NCBI GenBank assembly: GCA_028282195.1 | Contig: JANQII010000044.1 | Span: 1-51,376, forward strand | Length of the DNA: 51,376 bases | Source of the DNA: Prolixibacteraceae bacterium | GTDB taxonomy: Bacteria > Bacteroidota > Bacteroidia > Bacteroidales > Prolixibacteraceae | Reading direction: 5' to 3' | Shown: positions 1,469 through 17,653 of the stretch, one piece after another | Layout of the letters: each line of letters starts with the position of its first letter | Position numbering within the stretch: position 1 is the first letter of the stretch | The notes under the pieces: generated by a model | Database searches by the model: none | What the model was told of the DNA's origin: nothing | What the model saw: the letters and a program-made list of their open reading frames with translations, nothing else | Program-made: the position numbers and the translations under genes

Positions 1469-1497
1469 CTCGGCCCCGAAACATCGGGGTCACGTCA

Positions 1498-3897
1498 CTA
1501 CTCGTATCTCAACGCTTCGACAGGATTTCTGGTTGCAGCTTTCCAGCTTTGAAATGACACGGTTAGCAACGCAATTCCTAGCGCCAACACCCCTGCCAAG
1601 GCAAAAATCCACCAGCTTAAGGTGGTTTTGTAGGCAAAGTTCTCCAGCCATTTATTCATGGCGTAGTATGCAATTGGGCAGGCTATTACAAAAGCAATGG
1701 CAACCCATTTTACGAAGTCTTTATTAAGCATTGCCAATACCTCAGAAACTTCAGCACCGTTCACTTTGCGGATGCCGATTTCTTTAGTGCGGTTTTCAGA
1801 TAAAAATGATGCCATTCCAAAAAGGCCTATTCCTGAAAGAAAGATTGCAAAGAAGGAAAAGATTGAAATTACTTGTCCTAACTCTTGTTCTGATTCATAA
1901 TTTTTAAAATAAACTTCCTTAACATCCATGTTTATAAATGGAGTTTCCGGGAACATACCAGTCCATGTTTCTTCAAAAAACTTCAGTGTAGCTTCCTTTT
2001 GTTCAGGGTTTATTCTGAATGTCAGGAAGGCAGGGAAACCATTGTGTTGCCCGTAACGAAACACCATTGGAGGAGTTGCATTTTTAAGCGTTGTTGTGGT
2101 AATATCTTTAAGCACACCAACAACAGGGAAAGAATTCCCCTCATGACTAAAGCTTAAAAACTTATTGTCAATGTTATCCCAACCAAATTTCTTCATTGCA
2201 GTTTCATTGATAATAAAAGCTTGTTTATCAGTCGCATAATCCGGTGAGAAAAACCGTCCATGAGCCAACTGAACTTTATAAACATCCAAATAGTTTTCAT
2301 CAATAGCAGTAGATATAACTTTGCATTCATCAATTTTCGAATCCTGAGGATGAATAATAAAGTTGTTTTGAAAATAGTAACCTGGAACATTTTCGGTAAT
2401 AGCTCCTTGTCCAAAACCATATTTTGATCCGTATTTTTCCAATTCAGCTCTAAACAATTTAGCTTTGTTATATTTCTCGTGATACGCTGCCTCAATTTGA
2501 CTTACCCCAATTGATGTCAGATTATTGTTATCAAATCCTGGATTAGCATTCTTCATGTCACTAATCTGCTTATAAACAAACATCTGAGCGGTTATTAAAA
2601 TAATAGTTAACCCAAATTGAAAAATAATGTAACCACCCCTGGCTTTACCTTTACCGCCCATCATACGCAAGTTATTTCTAATAACCTGGATTGGTTGGAC
2701 TTTGGAGAATACAACGCCCGGGATAATTCCTGAAAAAAAGGCTAATAATATGCTAACTGCTAATACTCCGCTCCAGACATATAAATTTCCAAATTGTGGT
2801 TGCACTGTACGATTTACAAACGATTCAAAGTATGGTAAACAGAACCAACATAATGGAACTGCAACCAATAATGCAATAATTGTTGTAACCAAAGAAAATT
2901 TTAATTGTTTTCCGATAATTTGCCATGGACTTGCACCAGATATTCTACGAATACCACTATCTATATTAAGTTGATGGGATTGTGCTGTAGAAAGACTAAC
3001 AAAATTAATTACAGCAATAAACAGAGTTAGCAAAGCAATCACTCCTAAAATAACAAGGTATGTTTTTGAAACTGGCTCAACCAATCCTCCGAGCAACGAA
3101 CTATCAAAATGGAGCTCCTTAAATGGTTTCACATAAAAGTTGTTTTGACTTTTGAGGAAACTGGGATAATATTTTCCAGGAATTTGATTTAAATGTGCTT
3201 CAAAGTCTTTCACATTTGTTCCATCTTGTAAAATAACAAATGTATTCGTTCCAGATGACCACCATGCAACAGGGAATCTATCCCAAATAACTTTATTAAG
3301 TTTTTCAGAAAAAAGAATATCAAAATTCAAAGAAGAGTGTTCGGGGAGGTCTTGAAAAACCCCACTTACTGTGAAAGAATATTTGTCCCATGTCAATTCT
3401 TTCCCGACCGGATTCTCTAATCCAAATATTTTTTGCGAAGTACTTTCTGAAATAACAATCTTATTGTGTACATCAAGCACACTTTTGACTTCACCCAGAA
3501 TGAGTTGAAAATCAAACATTGAAAAGATATCTGTATCAACAGCAGCTCCTGTTAAACCAAAATATGAAAGATCCTGATACTTTATCTCCGCTTCTTCATG
3601 AAGCATTAAGTTTACACCGACCACTTCTTCTACCTCAGGAAAATCATTCTTGAGGGTCTGAGGTAATGGATTTGGGGTATATGCCTTGCAGCTTCCATCT
3701 TGCTTATCTTGCATGCAAATACTTACTATCTGCTCAGATTTCGAATGAAACTTATCAAATGAGATTTCAAAATTCAGCAACATCACTATTAAGGTTGTCA
3801 AACACAATCCCATTGCCAGTCCCAATATATTTAGAACAGTATACTTTCCTGAATTCTTAAGCTGTCTTATAATACTTTTTATCGAGTAGAATATCAT
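1498..3897 (-). CDS. FtsX/MacB-family ABC permease 1
   Basis: A 799-residue integral membrane permease of the type used by ATP-driven tripartite efflux or lipoprotein/macrolide-type exporters. It has one N-terminal helix (about residues 20-42), a large periplasmic MacB_PCD-like domain, an FtsX block of three helices (about 280-420), a second TM helix near 430, a second periplasmic domain, and a C-terminal FtsX block containing TKEIGIRKVNGAEVSE. This doubled architecture and length are normal for Bacteroidota. It is the most distal of four paralogues served by one ATPase gene at 12794. The final 95 residues are almost identical to those of its paralogues while the N-terminal domains differ widely, so substrates probably differ. 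The substrate is unknown. Confidence 0.9.
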   Translation of the reverse strand: MIFYSIKSIIRQLKNSGKYTVLNILGLAMGLCLTTLIVMLLNFEISFDKFHSKSEQIVSICMQDKQDGSCKAYTPNPLPQTLKNDFPEVEEVVGVNLMLHEEAEIKYQDLSYFGLTGAAVDTDIFSMFDFQLILGEVKSVLDVHNKIVISESTSQKIFGLENPVGKELTWDKYSFTVSGVFQDLPEHSSLNFDILFSEKLNKVIWDRFPVAWWSSGTNTFVILQDGTNVKDFEAHLNQIPGKYYPSFLKSQNNFYVKPFKELHFDSSLLGGLVEPVSKTYLVILGVIALLTLFIAVINFVSLSTAQSHQLNIDSGIRRISGASPWQIIGKQLKFSLVTTIIALLVAVPLCWFCLPYFESFVNRTVQPQFGNLYVWSGVLAVSILLAFFSGIIPGVVFSKVQPIQVIRNNLRMMGGKGKARGGYIIFQFGLTIILITAQMFVYKQISDMKNANPGFDNNNLTSIGVSQIEAAYHEKYNKAKLFRAELEKYGSKYGFGQGAITENVPGYYFQNNFIIHPQDSKIDECKVISTAIDENYLDVYKVQLAHGRFFSPDYATDKQAFIINETAMKKFGWDNIDNKFLSFSHEGNSFPVVGVLKDITTTTLKNATPPMVFRYGQHNGFPAFLTFRINPEQKEATLKFFEETWTGMFPETPFINMDVKEVYFKNYESEQELGQVISIFSFFAIFLSGIGLFGMASFLSENRTKEIGIRKVNGAEVSEVLAMLNKDFVKWVAIAFVIACPIAYYAMNKWLENFAYKTTLSWWIFALAGVLALGIALLTVSFQSWKAATRNPVEALRYE

Positions 3898-3952: not shown

Positions 3953-4018
3953 TTATTCATACCTCAACGCTTCGACTGGATTCCTCGTTGCTGCCCTCCT
4001 GCTTTGCCAACTAATTGT
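3953..4018 (-). pseudogene. Orphan permease 3' tail after GxxExxY copy 1
   Basis: The minus strand encodes TISWQSRRAATRNPVEALRYE and a stop, a duplicate of the last 20 or so permease codons with no permease in front of it. The stop codon of the adjacent GxxExxY gene (4011-4013) lies inside this tail in another frame. Together with the intact tail of permease 2 on the other side, the GxxExxY gene is bracketed by direct repeats of the permease 3' end. Confidence 0.8.
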
Positions 4019-4406
4019 CAGAACTTTGATTTGTTTGATTGGATGAAGGATTTGATTCTTTATTCATCACCCGTTTAAATTCCAAACTTTTACTTCCGAA
4101 ATTGATTAACAGCCCAACTTCCATTTTGTATGCCTCTAAATAATTAATTGCCTGGGCAAGGTGCACATCTTCAAGCTGGATTATTGCTTTTATTTCAACC
4201 ATCACTTTCTCTTCAACGAAAAAATCTACCCTTCGGCTTCCGATGCTATTCCCTTTATATTCCAGGGGCAATCCAAATTCAACGGCCAAAGCTCTTTGAT
4301 AAACCACCTCTTGAAAGCCATTTCCCAAATGTTTGTGCACTTCCATTGCACATCCAATTATTTTGGATGTCAATTCTGAATAGTTGTATTTTTCATTGGT
4401 GTGCAT
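4011..4406 (-). CDS. GxxExxY protein, PD-(D/E)XK-like (copy 1, internal deletion)
   Basis: A 131-residue member of the GxxExxY family. The name motif is GFQEVVY at residues 30-36, and the nuclease-like core is D61 followed by E71-I-K73. The family (PDDEXK_3-type fold) is widespread in Bacteroidota and lacks an established function. Compared with copy 2 at 12148 it lacks eleven residues (QGIDFKREFEM) just before the core, an in-frame 33-base deletion. The start matches all three copies and follows a 62-nt leader directly after the permease 2 stop codon. The last residues (SSDN) and the stop are read from a duplicated permease tail, so the natural C-terminus appears replaced. The rest of the reading frame is intact. 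Confidence 0.85.
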   Translation of the reverse strand: MHTNEKYNYSELTSKIIGCAMEVHKHLGNGFQEVVYQRALAVEFGLPLEYKGNSIGSRRVDFFVEEKVMVEIKAIIQLEDVHLAQAINYLEAYKMEVGLLINFGSKSLEFKRVMNKESNPSSNQTNQSSDN

Positions 4407-4468
4407 ACTTCTTTTATTTCATTCTTAATCACAGTTTTCAAACCATCATTCAATCAAAGTTCAAGACT
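4407..4468 (-). repeat. 62-nt GxxExxY leader, copy 1
   Basis: This spacer runs from the permease 2 stop codon to the GxxExxY start codon. Copies of exactly the same length lie at 9514-9575 and 12577-12638. The permease-proximal 43 or so bases are identical in all three apart from one base. Being more alike than the flanking permease coding sequence at synonymous sites, it may be a cassette end, promoter or recombination site. Confidence 0.8.
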
Positions 4469-6862
4469 TTACTCATATCGCAAAGCCTCCACCGGGTTTT
4501 GTGTAGCTGCCCTCCAACTTTGCCAACTCACCGTCAATAAAGCTATACCTAATGCTATCACACCTGCCAATGCAAATATCCACCAACTTAATGTGGTTTT
4601 GTATGCAAAGTTCTCAAGCCATTTATTCATAGCATAGTATGCAATTGGGCAGGCGATTACAAAAGCAATGGCGACCCACTTTACAAAGTCTTTGTTGAGC
4701 ATAGCAAGTACCTCTGATACTTTGGCTCCGTTTACTTTGCGGATGCCGATTTCTTTGGTTTTTCGGAGGATAGTAAAAAGACTAATCGCGTATAATCCAA
4801 AGCAGGCTATTACAATTGAAATAACAGACAATAGAAATAACAACTTCTTTGCCTGCTGGTCTTTGGTATATTGCATGGCAAGTACTTCATCGTGAAATGT
4901 ATAATTTAAGGGAAATGGAACTTTGTGTTTAGCCCAATGCTCCTTTAAAATCCCTAGAACTTCTGAAGTCTGGTTATTCCTGAATTTGATTGTTACATTT
5001 CCAAAATTATTAATTCGCTTGATTACCAAAGGCTGTATTCGGTGGTGCAACGAACGAAAATTAAAATCTTTTACTATACCAATCACCTTGAAAGGTTTAT
5101 CAGACAATAATATGTTCTTGCCAATCAATGAACCTTGTCCGGAATACTCTTTAAGGGCTGTTTCATTCAAAATCACTGACTCAAAATCCGTTTGCCTTTC
5201 CTTGTCAAAAAAACGCCCCTCCTTCATCTCAAGATTAAAAGTATTCACGAATTCATCATCAACAGGAAGGACACTTGTGTGAAAAAAGTTTTCTTCTGCC
5301 TTAGATTCAAAATATCCGCTGCTCATGCCAAAGTCCTCTCCAAAATACACGTCACTCGTTGAAACTGATTCTATAGTAGTGTGAGATTTTAAATCTTCAA
5401 TGAAACTCTTACGTGCATTTGGATGCATATCCCACATGGAAAGCATCAATACATTTTCTGAATCATATCCTCTTTCTTTGTTCACAACATGGTTAATTTG
5501 TTTTTGTACAATAAAGGAGCAAAGTATGATTAACCCGGAAAGGGCAAACTGCAAAATCACGAAACTATCTTTTACCGAAAATCTGTTCTTTGTCTGATTT
5601 TTTTCTTTTACAAACCATAATACTTTTCTATTTGACATAACAGTGATTGGTATAATATTAGCTACCATATTGAATCCTAACAAGCCAATAAATAAAAAAA
5701 GTATAATTTTAAACAACTCGGTATTGGATAATACTATCTCGAAGCCAAGGTATTGTCTAAGCGGTTTTGCTGCAATCTGGTAAAGAATCACTGCCAATGA
5801 AAAACCAATAGACCCAAAAATGAACGACTCATACAAAAACTGAAAAACTATCTGTTTATTGAATGCTCCGGTTATTTTTCGTATACCAATCTCTCTTAGG
5901 CGGGTTGATAAGTTGGCAATAGTAAGGTTTATGAAATTTATTGAGGATATTAGCAATACAAGCAGTGCTAAAATTACAGCTCCATAAACATACCTTTTAT
6001 CTGAAGTTACAGCATTGTTAAATTTGTGCTTACTAAAGTGAATATCGGCTAAAGGTTCAGCATTGTAAAAAATATAGGTATTGTCATTGTATTTTAAATC
6101 CTCCCAGTTTTTTGCAAGGTTACCATTTATATACTCATCATTAGAGTGAGAATAAACCGTTTTTGTAAGTTTAAAGTTTAATGCGTTGATATCAATATTG
6201 GTGACATTTGTTTTTATATAAGTTGAGTAGATTTGTGACCAACCATCCAATTCAGGATTCACTTTATGTATGGACTGTATAACTTTTGCTTGCAAATGAA
6301 AATTAGCAGGAAAATCATTAAACACTCCAATTATAGAACATTTATCTCCATGCAATAGCACAATTTCACCCAGCGCATTTTCAACCGAACCGAAATGTTG
6401 TAATGCCAAACTTTTGGAAATGGTAATGTTATTTTCAGAATCAAATGGGTTTTGGATTGTTGTTTGAATATTGATTCCGAAGAAATTAAAAAATTGATTG
6501 TCAGCAAACAATAAAGGTCCGGCTTCAATAACTTTATTCTCATGGTATATAGTCGCCTGTCCTCTAAATCTTAAACAAGTTGCATTTGTAATTTCAGGAA
6601 TCTCATTTAAAACTGCTTCTGCCATGAGCGAACTTGTCACAGCAAAATCAGCCTCCTTCCCATCAAGTTTTCCTTGCATAGTGCAGCGAAAAATTTTGTT
6701 ATAGTCAGGAACACACTTGTCAAAACTTGTTTCGTAATATACGTATCCTGTGGCGAACAAAACTACAGCGAATGAAACACTTATACCAAAAAGTTTTGCA
6801 AAAGATAAAACGCGGTTTTTTCGCGCATTCCTAAAAGCTATTTTAAAATTATTCGATAACAT
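4469..6862 (-). CDS. FtsX/MacB-family ABC permease 2
   Basis: A 797-residue double-FtsX permease: N-terminal helix (about 20-40), periplasmic MacB_PCD-like domain, three-helix FtsX block (about 290-410), second periplasmic domain, and C-terminal FtsX block with TKEIGIRKVNGAKVSE. It sits third in the minus-strand array, after permease 3, with a 115-base gap. Its last 95 residues match permeases 1 and 4 almost exactly although many codons differ, which indicates strong constraint or old gene conversion. It would pair with the ATPase at 12794 and the HlyD/TolC pair. The substrate cannot be read from sequence. Confidence 0.9.
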   Translation of the reverse strand: MLSNNFKIAFRNARKNRVLSFAKLFGISVSFAVVLFATGYVYYETSFDKCVPDYNKIFRCTMQGKLDGKEADFAVTSSLMAEAVLNEIPEITNATCLRFRGQATIYHENKVIEAGPLLFADNQFFNFFGINIQTTIQNPFDSENNITISKSLALQHFGSVENALGEIVLLHGDKCSIIGVFNDFPANFHLQAKVIQSIHKVNPELDGWSQIYSTYIKTNVTNIDINALNFKLTKTVYSHSNDEYINGNLAKNWEDLKYNDNTYIFYNAEPLADIHFSKHKFNNAVTSDKRYVYGAVILALLVLLISSINFINLTIANLSTRLREIGIRKITGAFNKQIVFQFLYESFIFGSIGFSLAVILYQIAAKPLRQYLGFEIVLSNTELFKIILFLFIGLLGFNMVANIIPITVMSNRKVLWFVKEKNQTKNRFSVKDSFVILQFALSGLIILCSFIVQKQINHVVNKERGYDSENVLMLSMWDMHPNARKSFIEDLKSHTTIESVSTSDVYFGEDFGMSSGYFESKAEENFFHTSVLPVDDEFVNTFNLEMKEGRFFDKERQTDFESVILNETALKEYSGQGSLIGKNILLSDKPFKVIGIVKDFNFRSLHHRIQPLVIKRINNFGNVTIKFRNNQTSEVLGILKEHWAKHKVPFPLNYTFHDEVLAMQYTKDQQAKKLLFLLSVISIVIACFGLYAISLFTILRKTKEIGIRKVNGAKVSEVLAMLNKDFVKWVAIAFVIACPIAYYAMNKWLENFAYKTTLSWWIFALAGVIALGIALLTVSWQSWRAATQNPVEALRYE

Positions 6863-6891
6863 TTTTCAGTATTTAGTTTTTTGTTCAATTC

Positions 6892-6915
6892 TTCATACTT
6901 CAACGCTTCCAATCC
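6892..6915 (-). pseudogene. Possible orphan permease tail
   Basis: Between permeases 3 and 2 the minus strand reads GLEALKYE, resembling the VEALRYE terminus in the right orientation but without an immediate stop. The match is eight residues and is listed mainly because every junction of this array has a similar fragment. Confidence 0.3.
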
Positions 6916-6977
6916 CGATTGTTTGTTTTCGGAATTTTCGTTCTCAAATTCGACAAACAATACATCGGATTTCAGCC

Positions 6978-9344
6978 TTACTCATAGCGTAAGGCTTCCA
7001 CCGGATTCCTTGTAGCTGCCCGCCAACTTTGCCAACTCACAGTTAAAAGCGCAATACCCAAAGCTAACACTCCAGCCAGCGCAAAAATCCACCAGCTTAA
7101 ATTGGTTTTATAGGCAAAGTTTTCGAGCCATTTGCTCATGGCGTACCACGCAACAGGGCATGCAACCACAAAGGCGATGGCTACCCATTTTATAAAATCT
7201 TTGTTGAGCTCGGCAAGGATTTCCGATATTCTTGCGCCATTAACTTTTCGAACACCAACTTCTTTGGTTCTTTGAGTGATTGCATAAGATGAAAGTGCAA
7301 ACAAACCGACGCAAGACAAGGCAATAGCTATCAATGCAAACCAGCTAAAAACCTTATTGATTTTTACATATTCTTTGTAATGATTATTTATTTTTTCATC
7401 TGCAAAAAAATGTGTTACAGTTGTGCCTGGGGCAGTTTCCTGCCATTTCTCATCCAGCAACTTCATTACATTTAAACTTGCCCCGGGCTTGGATCTCACT
7501 GATAGATATTGCCAGTCGGATAAATTGTCATTTTCAGTGAAAAAATGTGCTAATGGCTCATTTTCCAATTGTACCCCCTGGTAACTAAAGTCATCAATAG
7601 TGCCAATCAATTCATTGGGAGAACCAGTTTCAGAGCTTTCACGAAGGATTTGACGAGAAGCTTCTTTATAGCCTAACTTCTGCATAGCTGCTTTATTAAG
7701 CACCATTGAGCCTTTGTAAGATTTTAAATCATCACTAAATCCAGCTCCGTTAACAAACTCTATCCCAAAGGTTTTAAAATAGTTTCTTCCTACATAGGCT
7801 TTGCGAAGACGGATTCTTTCAACTTCAGCGGATTCTTCAGGATAAAATGTATTGTAATTATGATGGTATATACCTGGAATATTTTGGGAAAAGCTGACCG
7901 ATTGCACATAAGGACTTGATTTCAACTCATCCGCAATAAGTTTAAATTTTTGAGAAGCAGCAGATAAATCTTCATATTGCCAGGTATCTAATTCGGCAAC
8001 AATTACATTTTCTTTGTCAAATTTGGGATCTTTATCAATCATATGATTGACCTGTTTTTGAACAGCAAAAGTTGCTGTAACAAGGACTATAGCAATCGTA
8101 AATTGTAATATAATTAACGAGTATCGGTATATGCCGGATTTGTTTCCTTTAAGGATGTTTCCTTTTAGGCTTTCGGTGAGTTTTGTGCGAATCCAAAACA
8201 AAGAAGGAATAAGTCCGGAAACAAAACCAACTACGACCCAAATGCCCAACAAAGCAGGAAGTAAAAGTTTGTTTTCGAATAAACTAAATTGAAGGCTTGT
8301 TTCAAATAAACTGTTAAAAGATGGTAAAAAAACAATACAAATCAGGCAACCAAGAATCATTCCAAAAAAGCTTACAATCAATGATTCGGTCATCACCTGA
8401 CGAATCAAATGACTTTTTGATGCACCAATTACTTTCTTTAAACCAATTTCCTTAATCCGGGTCAATGAACTGGTTATACTTAAATTGATAAAATTAAAAA
8501 TGGCAATCCCGATAATAGCAAAAGCAATAAGACTCAAAATTACGATTAGCGATTTTTTTGACTCGTATTGAGCATGCTGTTTTTTAAAAGGAAATAAGTT
8601 TAGATCAGTCTTATTCTTACCTACAGGAATGAAATAAGCTGAAACGATATCCTGAAGTTTATTATCAATTGAGTCCTTATCAACACCATCATGAAGCATT
8701 ACATAAGAATCTGAAAATGTATTGTACCAATCATGGACCCCTTTGATCCAGGGAGATATGGATTCCCCTGTTTCATAGGAAGAAACAATATCAAACTTGA
8801 TTGAAGAATTTTCAGGGATATCAACTACTCCATTGACCTGCAAAAAGGTGTTATCGAATTTAACCTGTAATTTCTTGCCTAAAGCTGATGATTTGCCAAA
8901 ATACTTCTCTGCGAACTTACGGCTAATAACAACTCCGAATTTTTCATGAATACAGTTAGAAGCATCACCTTCAATAAACGGGAAAGTAAATATGGAAAAG
9001 AACCCCGTGTCTACATAGTGAACATTTTCAGGGAAAGCTACATCTCCATGACTCATTCTATAACCATCCCAAGTAAATATACGAGTCCCATTTTTTACCT
9101 CAGGAATTTGTTCAATCATTTTTGGAATTACCAATCCTTTCGTTTGCAGCCCTTCTCCTTCCCTTACCCGATATATACTTTGAAGATTTTTATTGAATTC
9201 ATTATAAGACAGGTCATTATATATGAAAAGAGATAGCATTAAAAATGAAGCTATTCCAACACCCATCCCTAAAACATTTATTAGCAAATAGTTTTTATTC
9301 TTTAAAAGAACACGAAAGCTGTTTTTGAAATGTAAAAAATTCAT
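6978..9344 (-). CDS. FtsX/MacB-family ABC permease 3
   Basis: A 788-residue permease with the same plan as its neighbours: one N-terminal helix, periplasmic domain, FtsX block (about 275-410) with the motif RIKEIGLKKVIGAS, a second periplasmic domain, and a C-terminal FtsX block with TKEVGVRKVNGARISE. Its C-terminal 95 residues are the most divergent of the four (for example AWYAMSKWLENFAYKTN), so it probably split earliest. It follows a truncated GxxExxY fragment by only 16 bases. It likely forms a homodimer or heterodimer with another array permease on the shared ATPase; this is inference. Confidence 0.9.
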   Translation of the reverse strand: MNFLHFKNSFRVLLKNKNYLLINVLGMGVGIASFLMLSLFIYNDLSYNEFNKNLQSIYRVREGEGLQTKGLVIPKMIEQIPEVKNGTRIFTWDGYRMSHGDVAFPENVHYVDTGFFSIFTFPFIEGDASNCIHEKFGVVISRKFAEKYFGKSSALGKKLQVKFDNTFLQVNGVVDIPENSSIKFDIVSSYETGESISPWIKGVHDWYNTFSDSYVMLHDGVDKDSIDNKLQDIVSAYFIPVGKNKTDLNLFPFKKQHAQYESKKSLIVILSLIAFAIIGIAIFNFINLSITSSLTRIKEIGLKKVIGASKSHLIRQVMTESLIVSFFGMILGCLICIVFLPSFNSLFETSLQFSLFENKLLLPALLGIWVVVGFVSGLIPSLFWIRTKLTESLKGNILKGNKSGIYRYSLIILQFTIAIVLVTATFAVQKQVNHMIDKDPKFDKENVIVAELDTWQYEDLSAASQKFKLIADELKSSPYVQSVSFSQNIPGIYHHNYNTFYPEESAEVERIRLRKAYVGRNYFKTFGIEFVNGAGFSDDLKSYKGSMVLNKAAMQKLGYKEASRQILRESSETGSPNELIGTIDDFSYQGVQLENEPLAHFFTENDNLSDWQYLSVRSKPGASLNVMKLLDEKWQETAPGTTVTHFFADEKINNHYKEYVKINKVFSWFALIAIALSCVGLFALSSYAITQRTKEVGVRKVNGARISEILAELNKDFIKWVAIAFVVACPVAWYAMSKWLENFAYKTNLSWWIFALAGVLALGIALLTVSWQSWRAATRNPVEALRYE

Positions 9345-9360
9345 ACCGAAGATTTTTAAG

Positions 9361-9513
9361 TTAATCTATATATCGTAGCCGGCATTCAACATCCAATGCC
9401 TGTTGATAAACAACTTCCTGAAACCCATTTCCCAAATGTTTGTGTACTTCCATTGCACATCCGGTTATTTTAGATGTCAATCCTGAATAGTTGTATTTTT
9501 CATTGGTGTGCAT
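9361..9513 (-). pseudogene. Truncated GxxExxY gene (copy 3)
   Basis: The minus strand from the ATG at 9513 encodes MHTNEKYNYSGLTSKITG and continues through GNGFQEVVYQQAL, matching residues 1-40 of copies 1 and 2. It then runs into LDVECRLRYID and a stop. The nuclease core (D, ExK) is missing, so this copy is dead or a 50-residue fragment. The 62-nt leader in front of it is preserved. The break point falls where a VExxLRY sequence resembling a permease tail begins, suggesting a recombination joint. Confidence 0.85.
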
Positions 9514-9575
9514 GCTTTACTGTTTTATTTTTTAATCACAGTTTTCAAATCATCATTCAATCAAAGTTCAAGACT
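9514..9575 (-). repeat. 62-nt GxxExxY leader, copy 3
   Basis: Same length and nearly the same sequence as the leaders at 4407 and 12577. It joins the permease 4 stop codon to the truncated GxxExxY start. It differs from the other two mainly in the dozen bases next to the GxxExxY ATG. Confidence 0.8.
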
Positions 9576-11921
9576 TTACTCATAACGTAACGCCTCCACT
9601 GGATTTCGCGTAGCTGCTCTCCACGATTGCCAGCTTACGGTAAGCAACGCAATTCCTAATGCCAACACACCCGCCAATGCAAATATCCACCAGCTTAATG
9701 TGGTTTTGTAAGCAAAATTCTCCAGCCACTTATTCATAGCATAGTAGGCAATTGGGCAAGCAACGACAAACGCAATGGCTACCCATTTGACAAAGTCTTT
9801 ATTAAGCATGGCCAATATTTCGGATACTTTAGCGCCGTTTACTTTTCGGATGCCTATTTCTTTGGTGCGAAGTTCAATCATTAAAGCTGCAAATGCCAGT
9901 AGGCCAACGAGTGCTACTAAAATTCCAAGAAAAGTGCCCAGGTAAAATATTCGTCTGAGAGCATGCTCTGTTGCGTACATATAAGAAAGCTCTTTGTCAA
10001 AATGAGTAAAAACTATACGGTAATTCGGATCAAATTTTTTCAAAATTTTATTCGTCTGTTTGATTATTTCCTGATCATCGCTCCCATCGGTTTTTATAGA
10101 AATTGTATAAATATCATTTCTATAGTTGGTAAGCATTAAAGGGGCAATCTTACTTTTTAATGAATGGTAATTATAATCATTAACAACTCCAATAATTTGT
10201 ACTTTTCCATCATCGGTATATCCATTATCAAAATGTAAAAACTTTCCTACTGGATTTTTTATACTTAATTCCCTAACAGCTCTTTGATTTAAAATAACAG
10301 CATTTTTCTCGAGATTTTGATTATTGAAGAAACGACCTTCTGCAAGTTTTAACCCGAAAACTTCGAGGTAACCTGATTGGACCCTTGCCTCATTGATTGA
10401 AAACATTGGAGAGCCGTTATAGCTCACACCCTGACCGGAACCTCCGGTACCCGGGTAAGAGTGCGAACCTGTTACTTCAACTACATAAGGAATAGACCGA
10501 AGTTCATTAGCTACCGTATGCCACTTATCAGTTAACTTATTGGTTATGCGCTTATAATTGATTACATTTTCAGAAGAAAATCCTTTTGGCTTGTTTTCAA
10601 TGTAGCTTATTTGCGTATGAATTGTCAGAATGCCTATAAGCATGAAAGAAATCAATGAAAACTGGAACACCAATAAATACTTTTTCCCATGTTTTCGATA
10701 TGATTCCGGCCTACCAGGATGTCTAAGGGACAAATTACAAATTCTTCCCAGGTTTAATGCAGGAACCAAACCTGCAATTAATAGCGTGAAAATTAATGTA
10801 CAGATTAAAAGAACATATACAGAAGGGGTCTGCCACAAATTTATAATGAAATTGATACCAATATAGTTTGCAATATGTGATTTCACCAATAAAAAAAGGA
10901 ACAAAGCCAAAATAAAAGATGAGACGATTACTATTGCAGATTCATTAAAGAAAAGAAAGATACTTTGCTTAAGGTTGCTTCCCAATACTTTTTGGATAGA
11001 AACATGTTTAATAAAGTTTTCCTTTCGTGCCGAAAACAAGTTGATATAGTTGGTAATTGAAATGATCAATATCGTTATCGCCAAAACAATCAGAAATATA
11101 ATAAGGGTAATATTTCCGTTTTCCTTAAAGTCAAAATCTGCCACAGTATATAAATGAATATCTGCTATTGGTTCAAGCCTGGCATCAGCAATAAAATCGT
11201 AAGATTTGAATCGTTCTCCCAAGACATTGATTACATGATCTTCACATTTCTTAGTTGCTTCAGGCAAATCAGAATCTTTCTTAAATAGAATGTAGGTAAA
11301 GAACTCAAGACCTCTATATTGAGCAACATTTGATGAAATCGGTTTCAGTACATCGAAATAAAAGTGGGTATTATCAGGAACATTTTCAATAACTGCACTT
11401 ACTGTAAATGGTTTTTCATCAACAACAACTTCTTTTCCAACAGGATTTCTATTACCAAAAACTTTTTGTGCAGTTTTTTTACTGATGACAATTTTATTGG
11501 GAGAATCAAGGGCTCCATCAATCAACCCGTAAATTGGTTTTAATTTAAATACTTTCAAAAAATTTGGAGTGACTTGAAAAGTAGGGTTGTTCGCTATTAC
11601 ATGATCATCAAGCTTGAAATAACTATCCCCGCCCCTGTATATTTGTGTAACTTCCTCTACTTCAGGAATATTATCTTTCAATTGCAAAATGCTTTCATTT
11701 AGGTTAATTGGAAGTATTTCAGTTTTATTTCCTTCATGCCAAATAGAAAGCAACCTGTATATTTTTTCATGATTAGGGATGTGTTTATCGTAGCTTAACT
11801 CCTGCACAATATAAAATGCCAGAAAAATAGTAGAACATAAAGCTATCATTAATCCAAAGATGTTGATCAAAGCAAGACCTTTGCTTTGATTAAGTCGCCG
11901 TAATATGAGTTTTAAAAACAT
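9576..11921 (-). CDS. FtsX/MacB-family ABC permease 4
   Basis: A 781-residue permease, the first intact one downstream of the ATPase. It has an N-terminal helix (about 15-38), a periplasmic MacB_PCD-like domain, an FtsX block (about 270-390), a second periplasmic domain, and a C-terminal FtsX block with TKEIGIRKVNGAKVSE. The final 95 residues are nearly identical to permeases 1 and 2, while the sequence before residue 690 is quite different. The shared end coincides with the point where GxxExxY cassettes are attached. The substrate is unknown; a role in ATP-driven export with HlyD and TolC is inferred from the operon. Confidence 0.9.
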   Translation of the reverse strand: MFLKLILRRLNQSKGLALINIFGLMIALCSTIFLAFYIVQELSYDKHIPNHEKIYRLLSIWHEGNKTEILPINLNESILQLKDNIPEVEEVTQIYRGGDSYFKLDDHVIANNPTFQVTPNFLKVFKLKPIYGLIDGALDSPNKIVISKKTAQKVFGNRNPVGKEVVVDEKPFTVSAVIENVPDNTHFYFDVLKPISSNVAQYRGLEFFTYILFKKDSDLPEATKKCEDHVINVLGERFKSYDFIADARLEPIADIHLYTVADFDFKENGNITLIIFLIVLAITILIISITNYINLFSARKENFIKHVSIQKVLGSNLKQSIFLFFNESAIVIVSSFILALFLFLLVKSHIANYIGINFIINLWQTPSVYVLLICTLIFTLLIAGLVPALNLGRICNLSLRHPGRPESYRKHGKKYLLVFQFSLISFMLIGILTIHTQISYIENKPKGFSSENVINYKRITNKLTDKWHTVANELRSIPYVVEVTGSHSYPGTGGSGQGVSYNGSPMFSINEARVQSGYLEVFGLKLAEGRFFNNQNLEKNAVILNQRAVRELSIKNPVGKFLHFDNGYTDDGKVQIIGVVNDYNYHSLKSKIAPLMLTNYRNDIYTISIKTDGSDDQEIIKQTNKILKKFDPNYRIVFTHFDKELSYMYATEHALRRIFYLGTFLGILVALVGLLAFAALMIELRTKEIGIRKVNGAKVSEILAMLNKDFVKWVAIAFVVACPIAYYAMNKWLENFAYKTTLSWWIFALAGVLALGIALLTVSWQSWRAATRNPVEALRYE

Positions 11922-11965
11922 AATCTTGAGTTAAAATTCTATAATTAAATTTTGTTTAGGAGAAA

Positions 11966-11995
11966 TCATTCATATTTCAATGCCTCCATCCCGTT
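11966..11995 (-). pseudogene. Orphan permease tail upstream of permease 4
   Basis: The minus strand reads NGMEALKYE followed by TGA, matching the permease terminus in orientation and position. It is followed (12004-12089) by a GC-rich stretch with the imperfect hairpin CTCCTCGCC-AACT-GGCGGAGGAG and CCCCCTC/GAGGGGG ends, which looks like repeat debris. Confidence 0.45.
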
Positions 11996-12089
11996 TCACG
12001 AGGATTTCTGTTTGTCGTCCATTTGACCCCCTCTTTTTTTCTCCTCGCCAACTGGCGGAGGAGTTCCCGAACCTGAGAGGACGAGGGGG

Positions 12090-12155
12090 TTATTCATACC
12101 TCAACGCTTCAACCGGGTTTCTCGTTGCTGCCCTCCAGCTTTGCCAGCTAACTGT
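12090..12155 (-). pseudogene. Orphan permease 3' tail after GxxExxY copy 2
   Basis: The minus strand encodes TVSWQSWRAATRNPVEALRYE and a stop with no permease body. It repeats the arrangement at 3953: the GxxExxY stop (12148-12150) lies within this tail in another frame. It is thus a second independent instance of a GxxExxY gene bracketed by permease ends. Confidence 0.8.
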
Positions 12156-12576
12156 CAGAACTTTGATTTGTTTGATTGGATGAAGGCTTTGATTTTTTAT
12201 TCATCACCCGTTTAAATTCCAAACTTTTACCCCCAAAATTGATTAACAGTCCAACTTCCATTTTGTATGCTTCCAAATAATTAATTGCCTGGGCCAAATG
12301 TACATCCTCAAGCTTGGAGACTGCTTTTATTTCCACCATCACTTTCTCTTCAACGAAAAAATCTACCCTTCGGCTTCCGATGCTATTCCCTTTATATGCC
12401 AGGGGCATTTCAAATTCACGTTTAAAGTCAATGCCTTGTAAGCCAAATTCAACAGCCAAAGCTCTTTGATAAACCACTTCTTGAAACCCATTTCCCAAAT
12501 GTTTGTGCACTTCCATTGCACATCCAATTATTTTGGATGTCAATTCTGAATAGTTGTATTTTTCATTGGTGTGCAT
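12148..12576 (-). CDS. GxxExxY protein, PD-(D/E)XK-like (copy 2, complete core)
   Basis: A 142-residue GxxExxY family protein, the most complete of the three. The GFQEVVY motif is at residues 30-36 (E33). The PD-(D/E)XK-type core is D72 with E82-I-K84, and a later QAINYL helix motif is present. Family members are predicted nuclease-fold proteins without proven activity. The gene has the same 62-nt leader as the other copies and lies between a 48-codon permease remnant and an orphan permease tail, into which its last residues (SSDS) and stop codon run. It interrupts the ATPase-permease operon on the same strand. Confidence 0.85.
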   Translation of the reverse strand: MHTNEKYNYSELTSKIIGCAMEVHKHLGNGFQEVVYQRALAVEFGLQGIDFKREFEMPLAYKGNSIGSRRVDFFVEEKVMVEIKAVSKLEDVHLAQAINYLEAYKMEVGLLINFGGKSLEFKRVMNKKSKPSSNQTNQSSDS

Positions 12577-12638
12577 ACTTTTTTTATGTCATTCTTAATC
12601 ACAGTTTTCAAATCATCATTCAATCAAAGTTCAAGACT
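12577..12638 (-). repeat. 62-nt GxxExxY leader, copy 2
   Basis: Joins the stop codon of a truncated permease (12639) to the GxxExxY start (12576). It equals the leaders at 4407 and 9514 in length and is almost identical in its permease-proximal part. Confidence 0.8.
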
Positions 12639-12782
12639 TTACTCGTATCTCAACGCTTCAACAGGATTTCGGGTAGCCGCCCGCCAGCTTTGCCAGCTTA
12701 CAGTTAACAATGCAATCCCCAAAGCCAAAACCCCTGCCAATGCAAATACCCACCAGCTTAATGTGGTTTTGTAGGCAAAGTT
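12639..12782 (-). pseudogene. 48-codon remnant of a permease
   Basis: The minus strand reads NFAYKTTLSWWVFALAGV and continues to RNPVEALRYE and a stop, the last 47 residues of an FtsX permease. Just upstream the frame shows a stop where the intact genes encode the WLEN sequence. The ATPase stop codon is only 11 bases away. The rest of this permease, probably the original partner directly behind the ATPase, has been deleted. Confidence 0.85.
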
Positions 12783-12793
12783 TTAGAACCATT

Positions 12794-13492
12794 CTAGAGT
12801 AGCACCTCTCCCAATTCCTTCTTCATTTCCTCGGTAATAATTTGTCCATCAAATAAATTAATAACCCGATGCGCGTATTCTGAGTCGCGTATGGAGTGGG
12901 TTACCATAACAATAGTTGTTCCTTCCCGGTTAAGCTCGGTAAGCAGGTTCATTACTTCCAAGCCGTTTTTGGAATCGAGATTACCGGTTGGCTCATCTGC
13001 AAGAATTAGCTTTGGGTTTGCCACAACAGCCCGGGCAATTGCAACACGTTGCTGCTGACCTCCTGAAAGCTGCTGCGGGAAGTGCTTTTTACGATGGCTG
13101 ATCTTCATTCGTTCCAGCACCTTTTCAACCATTGCCTTACGCTCACGGGCTTTTAATTTCAGGTAAATCAACGGGAGCTCTACATTTTCGTACACATTAA
13201 GCTCATCAATCAGGTTGAAGCTTTGAAAAACGAAACCAATGTTACCTTTCCGAAGTTGGGTACGGTTTCGTTCTTTTAACTGACCTACTTCCTGCCCATC
13301 AAAAAAATACTTACCATCAGACGGGTTATCGAGTAAACCAATAATGTTCAATAAGGTTGATTTGCCACAACCTGATGGTCCCATTATCGCAACAAATTCA
13401 CCTTTTTTTATATGAACGTTTACCTGGTTCAAGGCACTGGTTTCAATTTCTTCTGTGCGAAATACTTTGGTTAGATTCTCTGTTTTAATCAT
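12794..13492 (-). CDS. ABC transporter ATPase, MacB/LolD type
   Basis: A 232-residue cytoplasmic ATPase that would power the FtsX permeases. Visible motifs are Walker A GPSGCGKST (38-46), Q-loop Q90, signature LSGGQ (142-146), Walker B LILADE (162-167) with the D-loop NLD, and switch H199. The length and the sequence DEPTGNLDS place it with LolD/MacB/FtsE-like enzymes. It is the only ATPase gene in the island, against four intact permeases. It lies between a four-helix-bundle gene and a permease remnant, so the original ATPase-permease coupling has been disrupted, though the reading frame is intact. Confidence 0.95.
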   Translation of the reverse strand: MIKTENLTKVFRTEEIETSALNQVNVHIKKGEFVAIMGPSGCGKSTLLNIIGLLDNPSDGKYFFDGQEVGQLKERNRTQLRKGNIGFVFQSFNLIDELNVYENVELPLIYLKLKARERKAMVEKVLERMKISHRKKHFPQQLSGGQQQRVAIARAVVANPKLILADEPTGNLDSKNGLEVMNLLTELNREGTTIVMVTHSIRDSEYAHRVINLFDGQIITEEMKKELGEVLL

Positions 13493-13556: not shown

Positions 13557-13922
13557 TTATTTAAATTTTTCTTTTCGTGTTTTTATTAATTGATAAAGTT
13601 GAGCTGAAACTTTTCTTGAGGCCTCAAGCAAATCAGCATAATCAGAATCTGTAATGCAATTTAGTTGATTTGCAATATACAACTGTGTTCTAAGCTCTCC
13701 GTTCGAGCCTTTCGCGATAAACAGGTACTGAATAAATTCTTTGTTGTATTGTCTTTCAAATCCTTCAGCAATATTAGACGGAACAGAAACTGATGCCCGA
13801 CAAATCTGATCTTTGAATCCAAAGTCCTTACACGGTTGGAATATACTGTAGATTTTTATACTCAAATCAATCGCATTTTGCCAAACATTTAAATCCTCAA
13901 ATTTTTCAACTTTACTTTTCAT
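13557..13922 (-). CDS. Four-helix-bundle protein (23S rRNA-IVS family), copy 1
   Basis: A 121-residue protein of the family first found inside 23S rRNA intervening sequences (PF05635-like). Diagnostic sequences are LNVWQNAIDLS near the N-terminus, the central SVPSNIAEGFER, and FIAKGSNGELRTQLYIA. Members form four-helix bundles and oligomerise; relatives act as accessory proteins in diversity-generating retroelements, but no reverse transcriptase is present here. The gene is inserted between the HlyD and ATPase genes on the same strand. It is bracketed by an 8-bp inverted repeat (13515 and 13985), which suggests insertion as a cassette. Its cellular role is unknown. Confidence 0.9.
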   Translation of the reverse strand: MKSKVEKFEDLNVWQNAIDLSIKIYSIFQPCKDFGFKDQICRASVSVPSNIAEGFERQYNKEFIQYLFIAKGSNGELRTQLYIANQLNCITDSDYADLLEASRKVSAQLYQLIKTRKEKFK

Positions 13923-17284: not shown

Positions 17285-17653
17285 ATGGTTCAGTTTAGAT
17301 TTATGAATTTGGAAATATGGAAAGATGCTATCTCTTTGAATGATCAATTCTTTGATTTAGCAGACAAGATTGAAAATGCCAAGCAATTTAGATTTGCAGA
17401 ACAACTACGTGCAGCTTCTTTAAGTGTTTCTAATAACATTGCCGAAGGTTCTGGATCTTTTTCAACAAAGGATTTTGCAAATTTCCTGAATATTGCCAGA
17501 AGATCGGTTTTTGAAACTGCAAACATCTGTTTTGTAGCTTCTCGTAGAAATTTTATTGACGAAAATCAATTAAATCAGTTATTAACTAATCTTGACATAT
17601 TGAGCAGAAAGATTACAAATTTTAGAAAAACGATAATACGGGCAGAGAGCTAA
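17285..17653 (+). CDS. Four-helix-bundle protein (23S rRNA-IVS family), copy 2
   Basis: A 122-residue member of the same family as the gene at 13557 but clearly diverged. Recognisable parts are LEIWKDAISL, the central LSVSNNIAEGSGSFSTKDFANFL (the AEG turn typical of the family) and FETANICFVASRR. It sits between the efflux promoter region and the response-regulator gene on the plus strand. The 15-bp repeat GAGCTAAGYGCARAG occurs on both sides, and the right copy contains the last codon and stop (AES-stop). Its function is unknown; context suggests a cassette inserted into the regulator leader rather than a component of the two-component system. Confidence 0.9.
   Translation: MVQFRFMNLEIWKDAISLNDQFFDLADKIENAKQFRFAEQLRAASLSVSNNIAEGSGSFSTKDFANFLNIARRSVFETANICFVASRRNFIDENQLNQLLTNLDILSRKITNFRKTIIRAES

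Follow-up and report, generated by a model that had tools for sequence, protein, structure and literature searches.

The minus strand of a 51,376-nucleotide (nt) stretch of the genome of a Prolixibacteraceae bacterium (contig JANQII010000044.1 of assembly GCA_028282195.1; the whole stretch is called the window) carries an array of four FtsX-type ABC permease genes, with an ABC ATPase gene upstream and three copies of a GxxExxY gene interspersed. The GxxExxY gene is probably the single recognizable gene of a small mobile element (~0.45-0.5 kb) with imperfect inverted repeats as its boundaries, of which the window copies would be one branch. The three copies are designated a, b, and c; numbers prefixed by C, G, and L denote contigs of the same genome (G000), genomes, and fetched loci, respectively.

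The permease array and its GxxExxY genes

Copy a follows an orphan permease tail of ~46 codons (12639..12785; the tail match covers 12642-12806), which abuts the ABC ATPase gene (13492-12794); these and all other features of the array lie on the minus strand. Element a extends arm to arm over 12154..12637, its left arm (GTCTTGAAC...) running downwards from 12637 and its right arm (...GTTCTGAC) ending at 12154. The left arm is contained in a leader of 62 nt (12577..12638), the open reading frame (ORF) of 142 amino acids occupies 12148..12576, and a second permease tail, here called tail' (approximately 12090..12153), contains the GxxExxY stop codon. Element c (4017..4467, left arm to right arm, from sequence and arm alignment) is located behind the permease at 4469..6862 and has the same parts: a 62-nt leader (4407..4468), an ORF of 131 amino acids (4011..4406) with an internal deletion of 11 residues relative to copy a, and a tail' (approximately 3953..4016) that contains the stop codon. 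Element b (9345..9574), behind the permease at 9576..11921, consists of the left arm, the leader, and a 5' remnant of the GxxExxY gene with its ATG at 9511-9513, recognized by sequence and by a PF13366 match; it ends just short of the start of the next permease, and neither a right arm nor a tail' was seen at 9345..9574. The other two permeases (6978..9344 and 1498..3897) have no cassette behind them. The ATPase gene was taken from the ORF list, and the permeases from the ORF list together with tail matches, which also located the orphan tail and both tail' copies; leaders were delimited by sequence comparison, and the GxxExxY ORFs were identified by profile matches (with a structural model for copy a and the ORF list for copy c).

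The permease-tail stop codons lie at 12639-12641, 9576-9578, and 4469-4471, so that the leader is exactly 62 nt long in all three copies, as the first-pass annotation of this DNA had stated; its companion statement, that each locus stands behind a permease, fits copies b and c, but copy a follows the orphan tail and not a whole permease. The same annotation was right that the leaders are more alike than the synonymous sites of the adjacent permease ends: the leaders are identical at 59/62, 53/62, and 54/63 positions (85-95%), compared with 51/66, 51/66, and 52/66 for the 66-nt upstream tails, in which only 10-11 of 22 third positions are common to any pair. It was also right that two of the three copies are followed by a duplicate, about 21 codons long, of the permease end. 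Tail' a and tail' c agree at 59/66 positions and the ORFs of copies a and c are 87% alike, and tail' a matches its own upstream tail at 54/66 and the other two cassette-bearing tails at 50-52. Because the tail' copies and the leaders (53-59 of 62-63) are so much closer to each other than the upstream tails are, the copied unit was, by these sequence comparisons, most likely the leader, gene, and tail' together, with its left edge at the stop codon, rather than a fresh duplication each time or a simple homologous exchange across the tail.

The PF13366 profile has 15 matches in this genome; since some of those on C242 and on C115 are parts of a split match, they are read as 13 distinct copies. 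Of these, seven are tied to permease tails. Three are the window copies; the C216 copy has a tail, a leader of a length other than 62 nt, and a second tail; the C72 copy has a decayed second tail; and of the two on C242, one stands behind a short remnant of a tail and the other is fused to a fragment of a permease. Because four copies outside the window are thus tied to permease tails, though less neatly, the window pattern is more than chance. The six remaining copies are not linked to permeases: judging by the translated ends of the neighbouring genes, C246 is presumably near an L21-like gene, C109 and C130 between secretion ABC and HlyD-type genes, C250 between mutA and mutB, and C33 between cas4- and cas1-like genes; the sixth is on C115. 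Inverted repeats are visible by eye at five of the six (C115 shows none), and C246, C109, and C250 pass the score test described below. The C33 copy (locus L021) has TGTC-type ends, and on either side its outer end bears the 6-nt repeat AATGAA.

Inverted repeats at the ends of GxxExxY elements

The window elements end in imperfect inverted repeats (GTCTTGAACTTTGATT... / ...AATCAAAGTTCTGAC), which are weak: against shuffled left arms, the two full copies have p values of 0.006 and 0.002 and the truncated copy 0.98, and the same test gives 0.046 for C216, 0.032 for C72, and 0.47 for C242. Across the family, the gene is part of an arm-bounded unit. Arms were scored by aligning the left 200 nt of a locus with the reverse complement of its right 200 nt, with mismatched flanks as the null, for 125 loci (from this genome, its relatives, and 80 named loci, the best 80 of 567, which by record title come from many phyla) and for 339 mechanically listed control ORFs from the same loci. 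Arms score above the 95, 99, and 99.9% levels of this null at 85, 52, and 10 of the 125 loci, as against 12, 2, and 2 of the 339 controls. In a later set of 21 loci, of which one (L413) is locus L096 again, 18 lie above the same arm score, compared with 11.7% of that set's own mismatched null. By eye, the arms are often composed of imperfect 8-10-nt units (CGCAGATTA.., CACAGAGA.., CACAAAGAC..). They are not background in G035, a complete genome, because a 400-kb sample of it contains only five inverted repeats that score at least 34 with arms no more than ~250 nt apart; this sample, from one genome, gives no sign of a flood of free palindromes like that of REPINs.

The arms vary together with the protein. 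Over 84 loci, arm similarity drops with protein distance (r = -0.42 for the left arm and -0.45 for the right), and left arms score 31.6 on average in the 43 pairs with a protein distance below 0.35, versus 12.9 in the others (14.6 versus 11.0 for host sequence). This co-variation indicates that the arms belong to the element. Mismatches within the arms comprise 248 G-U, 282 A-C, and 1145 others; because G-U is not in excess over A-C, there is no sign of maintained RNA pairing. Arms of the same kind flank the IVP genes of relatives, 24 of 39 of which exceed their own 95% null. At locus L112 (~2940-3560), a GxxExxY element of the TGTC type apparently lies inside another GxxExxY gene of which the middle part is missing.

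This TGTC type forms a subclass whose ends resemble TGTC(T)TGAACxxTGATT; it is defined by the presence, at each end, of the motif GTC[0-2]GAA(C/T)xxGAT, in which two or three bases are free. The motif is present at both ends of 21 of 149 loci (20 of 148 without the duplicate L413 = L096) and of none of 337 control ORFs, and the protein motif LGNGFQ is found in 19 of the 21 subclass loci as against 39 of all 149. Both full window copies belong to the subclass, and since their local arm scores are weak, the claim that they have arms is made from this membership. In other bacteria, TGTC elements, mostly with LGNGFQ, stand behind hsdR, hsdM, hsdS, and NADH-dehydrogenase-like genes; in the genome of the window, the subclass is also present behind a cas4-like gene.

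The GxxExxY protein

The two full ORFs of the window match TIGR04256 (144.3 and 116.4 bits; cut-off 35) and PF13366 (138.9 and 106.7 bits; cut-off 22), and the PD-(D/E)XK-like core assigned to them at first pass, D72 and E82-x-K84, is invariant in an alignment of 60 relatives. The AlphaFold2 model built on 60 sequences (pLDDT 90, pTM 0.81) predicts two helices, a beta sheet that bears D72 and E82-x-K84, another helix, and two strands. In a Foldseek search its best match is SSO0001 (4ic1; E = 2.7e-5, TM-score 0.46 by query length), presumably a Cas4 protein, and only the four 4ic1 chains fall below E = 0.001. Weaker matches are to an Argonaute-associated protein of the Cas4 family, viral-type exonucleases, and MGME1, and the weakest are to an R2 endonuclease domain and a Holliday-junction resolvase; by sequence, no solved chain matches GxxExxY at E <= 1. 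With a predicted PD-(D/E)XK fold and a D...(D/E)xK core pattern, the window protein is a putative nuclease.

Between copies a and c, dN is 0.032 and dS 0.24, and for ORFs of Pedobacter the median dN/dS is 0.07 over the 19 usable pairs of 36, from a set of nine ORFs in which one locus is represented twice; as judged from these sequence comparisons, the ORF is under purifying selection. GxxExxY is the only element ORF with a family match. The three element ORFs on the opposite strand (63-130 amino acids) do not match Pfam even at E = 1, and no DDE, HUH, serine, or tyrosine recombinase or integrase family was found on the element ORFs scanned.

Placement in operons

GxxExxY genes lie mostly in the direction of their neighbours. 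At 129 loci with neighbours on both sides, both are co-directional in 103, both reversed in 9, and mixed in 17, while other adjacent ORF pairs of the same loci have the same direction in 210 cases and different directions in 70. The orientation of 103 to 9 may reflect selection, the gene needing the operon transcript, or a transcription-coupled or RNA step. At 44 of the 85 arm-bearing loci, the start of the left arm is no more than 20 nt away from the stop codon of a co-directional upstream gene. Outside the genome of the window, 111 of 142 entries have a co-directional upstream ORF within 350 nt, and 109 of these ORFs were scanned against families: N6_Mtase accounts for seven, Methylase_S for six, and the HsdR C terminus for three, with sugar-nucleotide enzymes, NADH-dehydrogenase-like proteins, methylmalonyl-CoA mutase, and others among the rest. 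No FtsX family appears in the listed 25 of the 132 families matched by these 109 neighbours, all 25 of which have at least three members, and therefore at most a few of them can be permeases. Elsewhere, GxxExxY genes sit behind hsdR, hsdM, hsdS, mutA, ftsY, sufB, and other genes.

The same orthologous junction may be occupied or unoccupied. In the order to which the window belongs, GxxExxY is present in 39 of 61 genomes (that of the window included), with up to 17 matches per genome, and it is also present in loci titled from many other phyla. Of the 61 genomes, 53 contain mutA; the mutA-mutB junction could be read at 29 of 30 fetched loci (L331-L360), and holds a GxxExxY gene in five, an IVP gene in nine, an internally deleted IVP gene in one, and neither in 14. 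The tightest gene-free junctions have an overlap of 4 nt or gaps of 1, 12, and 29 nt; in the 14 gene-free cases, the flanks are too divergent to reveal a target duplication. Of 99 Pedobacter genomes, 96 contain rimO, and 30 fetched loci of what are presumably ftsY and rimO (these names, like those of sufB and sufC, were assigned from translated sequences) comprise 12 with a full-size insert, four with a 3' remnant, two with arm remnants only, recognized by eye, and 12 with no trace, including one (L282) that was read in part only; intact GxxExxY ORFs were extracted from seven. Concerted evolution of the Pedobacter arms was considered and rejected: the median score is 26.5 for the left and right arms of one locus, 25 for left and right arms across loci, and 48 for left arms with each other. 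Between sufB and sufC of six Wenzhouxiangella, two have a GxxExxY gene and four have palindromic repeats, seen by eye, with no gene.

Second copies of gene tails

Behind some elements, part of the preceding gene is repeated. At L422, an element behind an HsdR gene is flanked by ATTAGCAGCTTATGA(A/G)TA, 17 of 18 positions being alike, and the right copy contains the next start codon; at L114, an HsdR end is duplicated over 54 nt, of which 48 are alike; and at L097, an HsdM end is duplicated more weakly, over 25 nt with 19 alike. The permease copies of the window's own genome have a tail duplicated over ~63 nt that abuts the arms. Long direct repeats around the gene pass the 99.9% null at 28 of 124 loci; they were not counted as target duplications because the majority, inspected by eye, consist of a hairpin or an arm-like repeat on each side of the gene and not of sequence from the host. 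A hairpin-like junction sequence stands on both sides of the GxxExxY gene at L138, L195, L181, L182, L200, and L211, and at L138 the repeated stretch also takes in the ribosome-binding region that follows. The arrangement resembles a cassette flanked by two copies of a single junction.

In this lineage, such elements recur at permease 3' ends, because by eye G003, of the same genus, has a different GxxExxY gene with other arms at almost the same junction, a permease tail in front of it and a second tail behind, and gene-free arms follow permease tails in G001 and a tail remnant in G022.

Comparison with known elements

Nearest by anatomy are the intervening sequences (IVSs) of 23S rRNA, likewise short single-ORF insertions, with an S23p/IVP ORF (four-helix, PF05635). 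For the IVS of Coxiella, a published account describes an ORF behind tandem GACAGAT heptamers and excision of the element by RNase III, and terms the element selfish (PMC4990558). The IVP genes of relatives share the anatomy of GxxExxY elements and one common junction (mutA|mutB). Unlike IVSs, GxxExxY elements lie between protein genes, their ORF has a PD-(D/E)XK fold and is not S23p/IVP, and their arm mismatches are without an RNA-pairing signature. An Rfam scan of 20 of the 80 named loci gave no match, rRNA included, and with neighbours that are protein genes, an rRNA location of the element was rejected.

REPIN-RAYT, ERIC, and Correia elements are palindromic or inverted DNA at operon junctions, and RAYT is a transposase of the HUH (Y1) type. 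GxxExxY elements resemble them as inverted DNA at operon junctions with a small gene between the repeats, but differ from REPIN-RAYT in that the protein is of the PD-(D/E)XK kind and not Y1, and in the scarcity of free inverted repeats in the one genome sampled. With insertion sequences and miniature inverted-repeat transposable elements they share conserved outer ends of the form TGTC...GACA in one subclass, terminal inverted repeats that belong to the element (present for the family, weak for the window copies alone) and track the protein clade, internally deleted copies, and several copies per genome; they differ in having no recognized transposase or recombinase family on the scanned ORFs, a strong orientation bias, and tail duplications that are uneven and mostly absent. 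The predicted fold and catalytic pattern place the protein close to the branch of Cas4, lambda exonuclease, MGME1, and the R2 endonuclease, from which it is set apart as a stand-alone small protein between repeats with no sequence match to solved chains. An integrase-type element at a permease site differs again, because here no one attachment sequence is common to all insertions. GxxExxY elements are therefore kept apart from IVSs, REPIN-RAYT, and the known transposon families, since a defining feature of each was looked for and found wanting, and are regarded as small inverted-repeat elements of their own. In the literature searched, in which subscription journals are little covered, GxxExxY genes are not described as mobile elements and are given no function.

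Probable mobility of GxxExxY elements

The element presumably moves as a unit, and its PD-(D/E)XK protein would make the nicks or breaks that move it. Its point of entry into an operon junction would be a gene's 3' end; in most cases it would run with transcription, often with its arm at or near the stop codon, and in some cases a duplication of the gene tail would lie behind it. In the genome of the window, one insertion probably captured a permease tail at its right end, after which the unit of leader, gene, and tail' would have been copied to other permease 3' ends, several copies having since decayed. The most economical route would consist of nicks at the arm ends and at the transcribed gene end, followed by closure of the gaps by host repair; nicks at uneven spacing could leave tail copies of uneven length. 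The lack of a G-U excess speaks against maintained RNA pairing, although an RNA step is still conceivable.

Several results weigh against mobility of this kind. No pair of strains with and without the element in otherwise identical flanks was found and movement was not observed, and at ftsY|rimO the Pedobacter arms look inherited rather than renewed, apparently by vertical descent. Arms fall short of the 95% null at 40 of the 125 loci, including the window copies and C33, which fails the score test among the non-permease copies; taken alone, the window arms do not exceed random window stretches in inverted-repeat score. The control host sequence 100-145 nt further out also correlates with protein distance, with r = -0.10 and nominal significance. 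Such a bias in orientation would be unusual for an ordinary inverted-repeat transposon. When 24 entries of the TGTC subclass were tested for tail copies directly at both ends (L096 and L413 being one locus, and L114 outside the scored pattern), four passed the 99% null, and three of the four are permease copies from the window's own genome; L097 and L021 reached only the 95% point, and 18 reached neither. Tail' c matches its own upstream tail at 48/66 and others at up to 51/66, and since the tail' copies are closest to each other and its own tail is not the nearest, tail' c is no fresh local target duplication; for the window copies in general that origin was rejected, only tail' a having its own tail as next nearest. 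Carriage is sparse: phage records contain no GxxExxY match, two pattern-based scans of viral contigs yielded nothing, and only 7 of 72,556 plasmid records have a match, so that phage or viral carriage was rejected. That two unrelated genes, GxxExxY and IVP, share one anatomy and one site suggests that the mover may be something else.

One alternative is an element that acts at the level of RNA. If the arms paired in the operon transcript and were cut, for example by RNase III, the neighbouring genes would stay expressed, GxxExxY and IVP would be alternative passengers, and spread might occur via RNA. The shared anatomy of the IVP genes, the presence of both genes at mutA|mutB, the co-directional placement, and the Coxiella precedent described above all agree with an IVS-like element, yet the balance of G-U and A-C mismatches and the empty Rfam scan of 20 loci count against it, and it is considered rather unlikely. 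There is a smaller chance that the junction hairpins form a resident regulatory module, setting mRNA ends or translation, with the small protein as a house gene kept alongside. Purifying selection, vertical inheritance at ftsY|rimO, and gene-free palindromes at the same junctions would be expected of such a module, but arms that vary between loci and yet follow the protein clade, the many empty or decayed junctions, and the multiplicity of family matches in one genome would not, and this account is judged quite improbable.

Two further alternatives concern the permease arrays themselves. A GxxExxY gene beside a permease tail could have been multiplied by homologous recombination between near-identical tails, a purely local event without any need for mobility, which the first-pass annotation had named as the chief alternative to its own proposal. 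Copying within the array accounts for the likeness of the window copies, which sit in permease arrays of one genome and of which tail' a and c are more like each other than any window tail; moreover, tail duplication is not special to GxxExxY, because other palindromes in permease arrays also have short second tails. Against this stand the left edge at the stop codon, leaders that are better conserved than the tails and their third positions, the same end motif around the gene in unrelated operons of other bacteria, and the different element of G003 at nearly the same junction. The local event is insufficient as a whole account, failing alone to explain arms around unrelated genes elsewhere, and is unlikely.

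The other alternative is the proposal of the first-pass annotation, a site-specific cassette with the FtsX-permease tail as its attachment site. In its favour are the seven copies of this genome that are tied to permease tails and the arms of G003, G001, and G022 directly behind permease tails or remnants. The empty sites that the annotation had asked for, tails without a cassette, are frequent in permease arrays from 14 other genomes. Its expectation that the same 62-nt leader recurs in related genomes failed: in a DNA search of 61 genomes, that of the window included, in which no more than 13 candidates from each genome were scored, the full leader was found only in the window's own genome, and beside permeases of other genomes it appears only as partial matches, the longest matches to tail plus leader being ~115 nt at 75% (G001) and 79 nt at 80% (G009). 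With upstream genes of other families elsewhere and no integrase family on the scanned element ORFs, the permease tail is unsupported as a general attachment site, and this model is very improbable. What survives of the proposal is a small, apparently undescribed cassette that lies at the 3' ends of genes and encodes a protein of nuclease fold, in some cases with a second gene tail behind it (at permeases, at the HsdR genes of L114 and L422, and more weakly at the HsdM gene of L097).

If the GxxExxY element is indeed mobile with a PD-(D/E)XK protein as its sole gene, that protein would be an unusual engine for DNA mobility; the element would account for many operon-junction palindromes and would bring the intervening sequences of 23S rRNA into a larger group. 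The idea can be tested directly at junctions that occur both occupied and free of the gene (mutA|mutB, ftsY|rimO, sufB|sufC, and the hsd operons). A bolder proposal, possible but doubtful, is that these elements represent a new class of self-moving elements, in which a single PD-(D/E)XK nuclease recognizes its own repeat-built arms and opens transcribed junctions co-directionally, host repair pastes or copies the element, and IVP genes use like ends and compete for sites; such a group of one-gene junction elements would have been overlooked as hypothetical genes.

Other features of the window

Two four-helix-bundle genes (IVP, TIGR02436) are located at 13557-13922 and 17285-17653, in or beside the same transporter operon; by the inverted-repeat score test used for GxxExxY, IVP2 has borderline inverted flanks and IVP1 none that are significant. 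An imperfect tandem heptamer-like array (CCAGTATC-GAGCATC-CAGCAAC...) at positions 1-80 resembles, by eye, the arms of IVP genes. Palindromes of many kinds stand directly behind permease stop codons, both in fetched loci (L361-L380) and in the window (1480-1500, 6890-6970, and 11960-12080), and the permease end (EALRYE) is often repeated over a short stretch behind them. Genome G035 has 13 permease-tail matches, and the sequence behind each tail is different.

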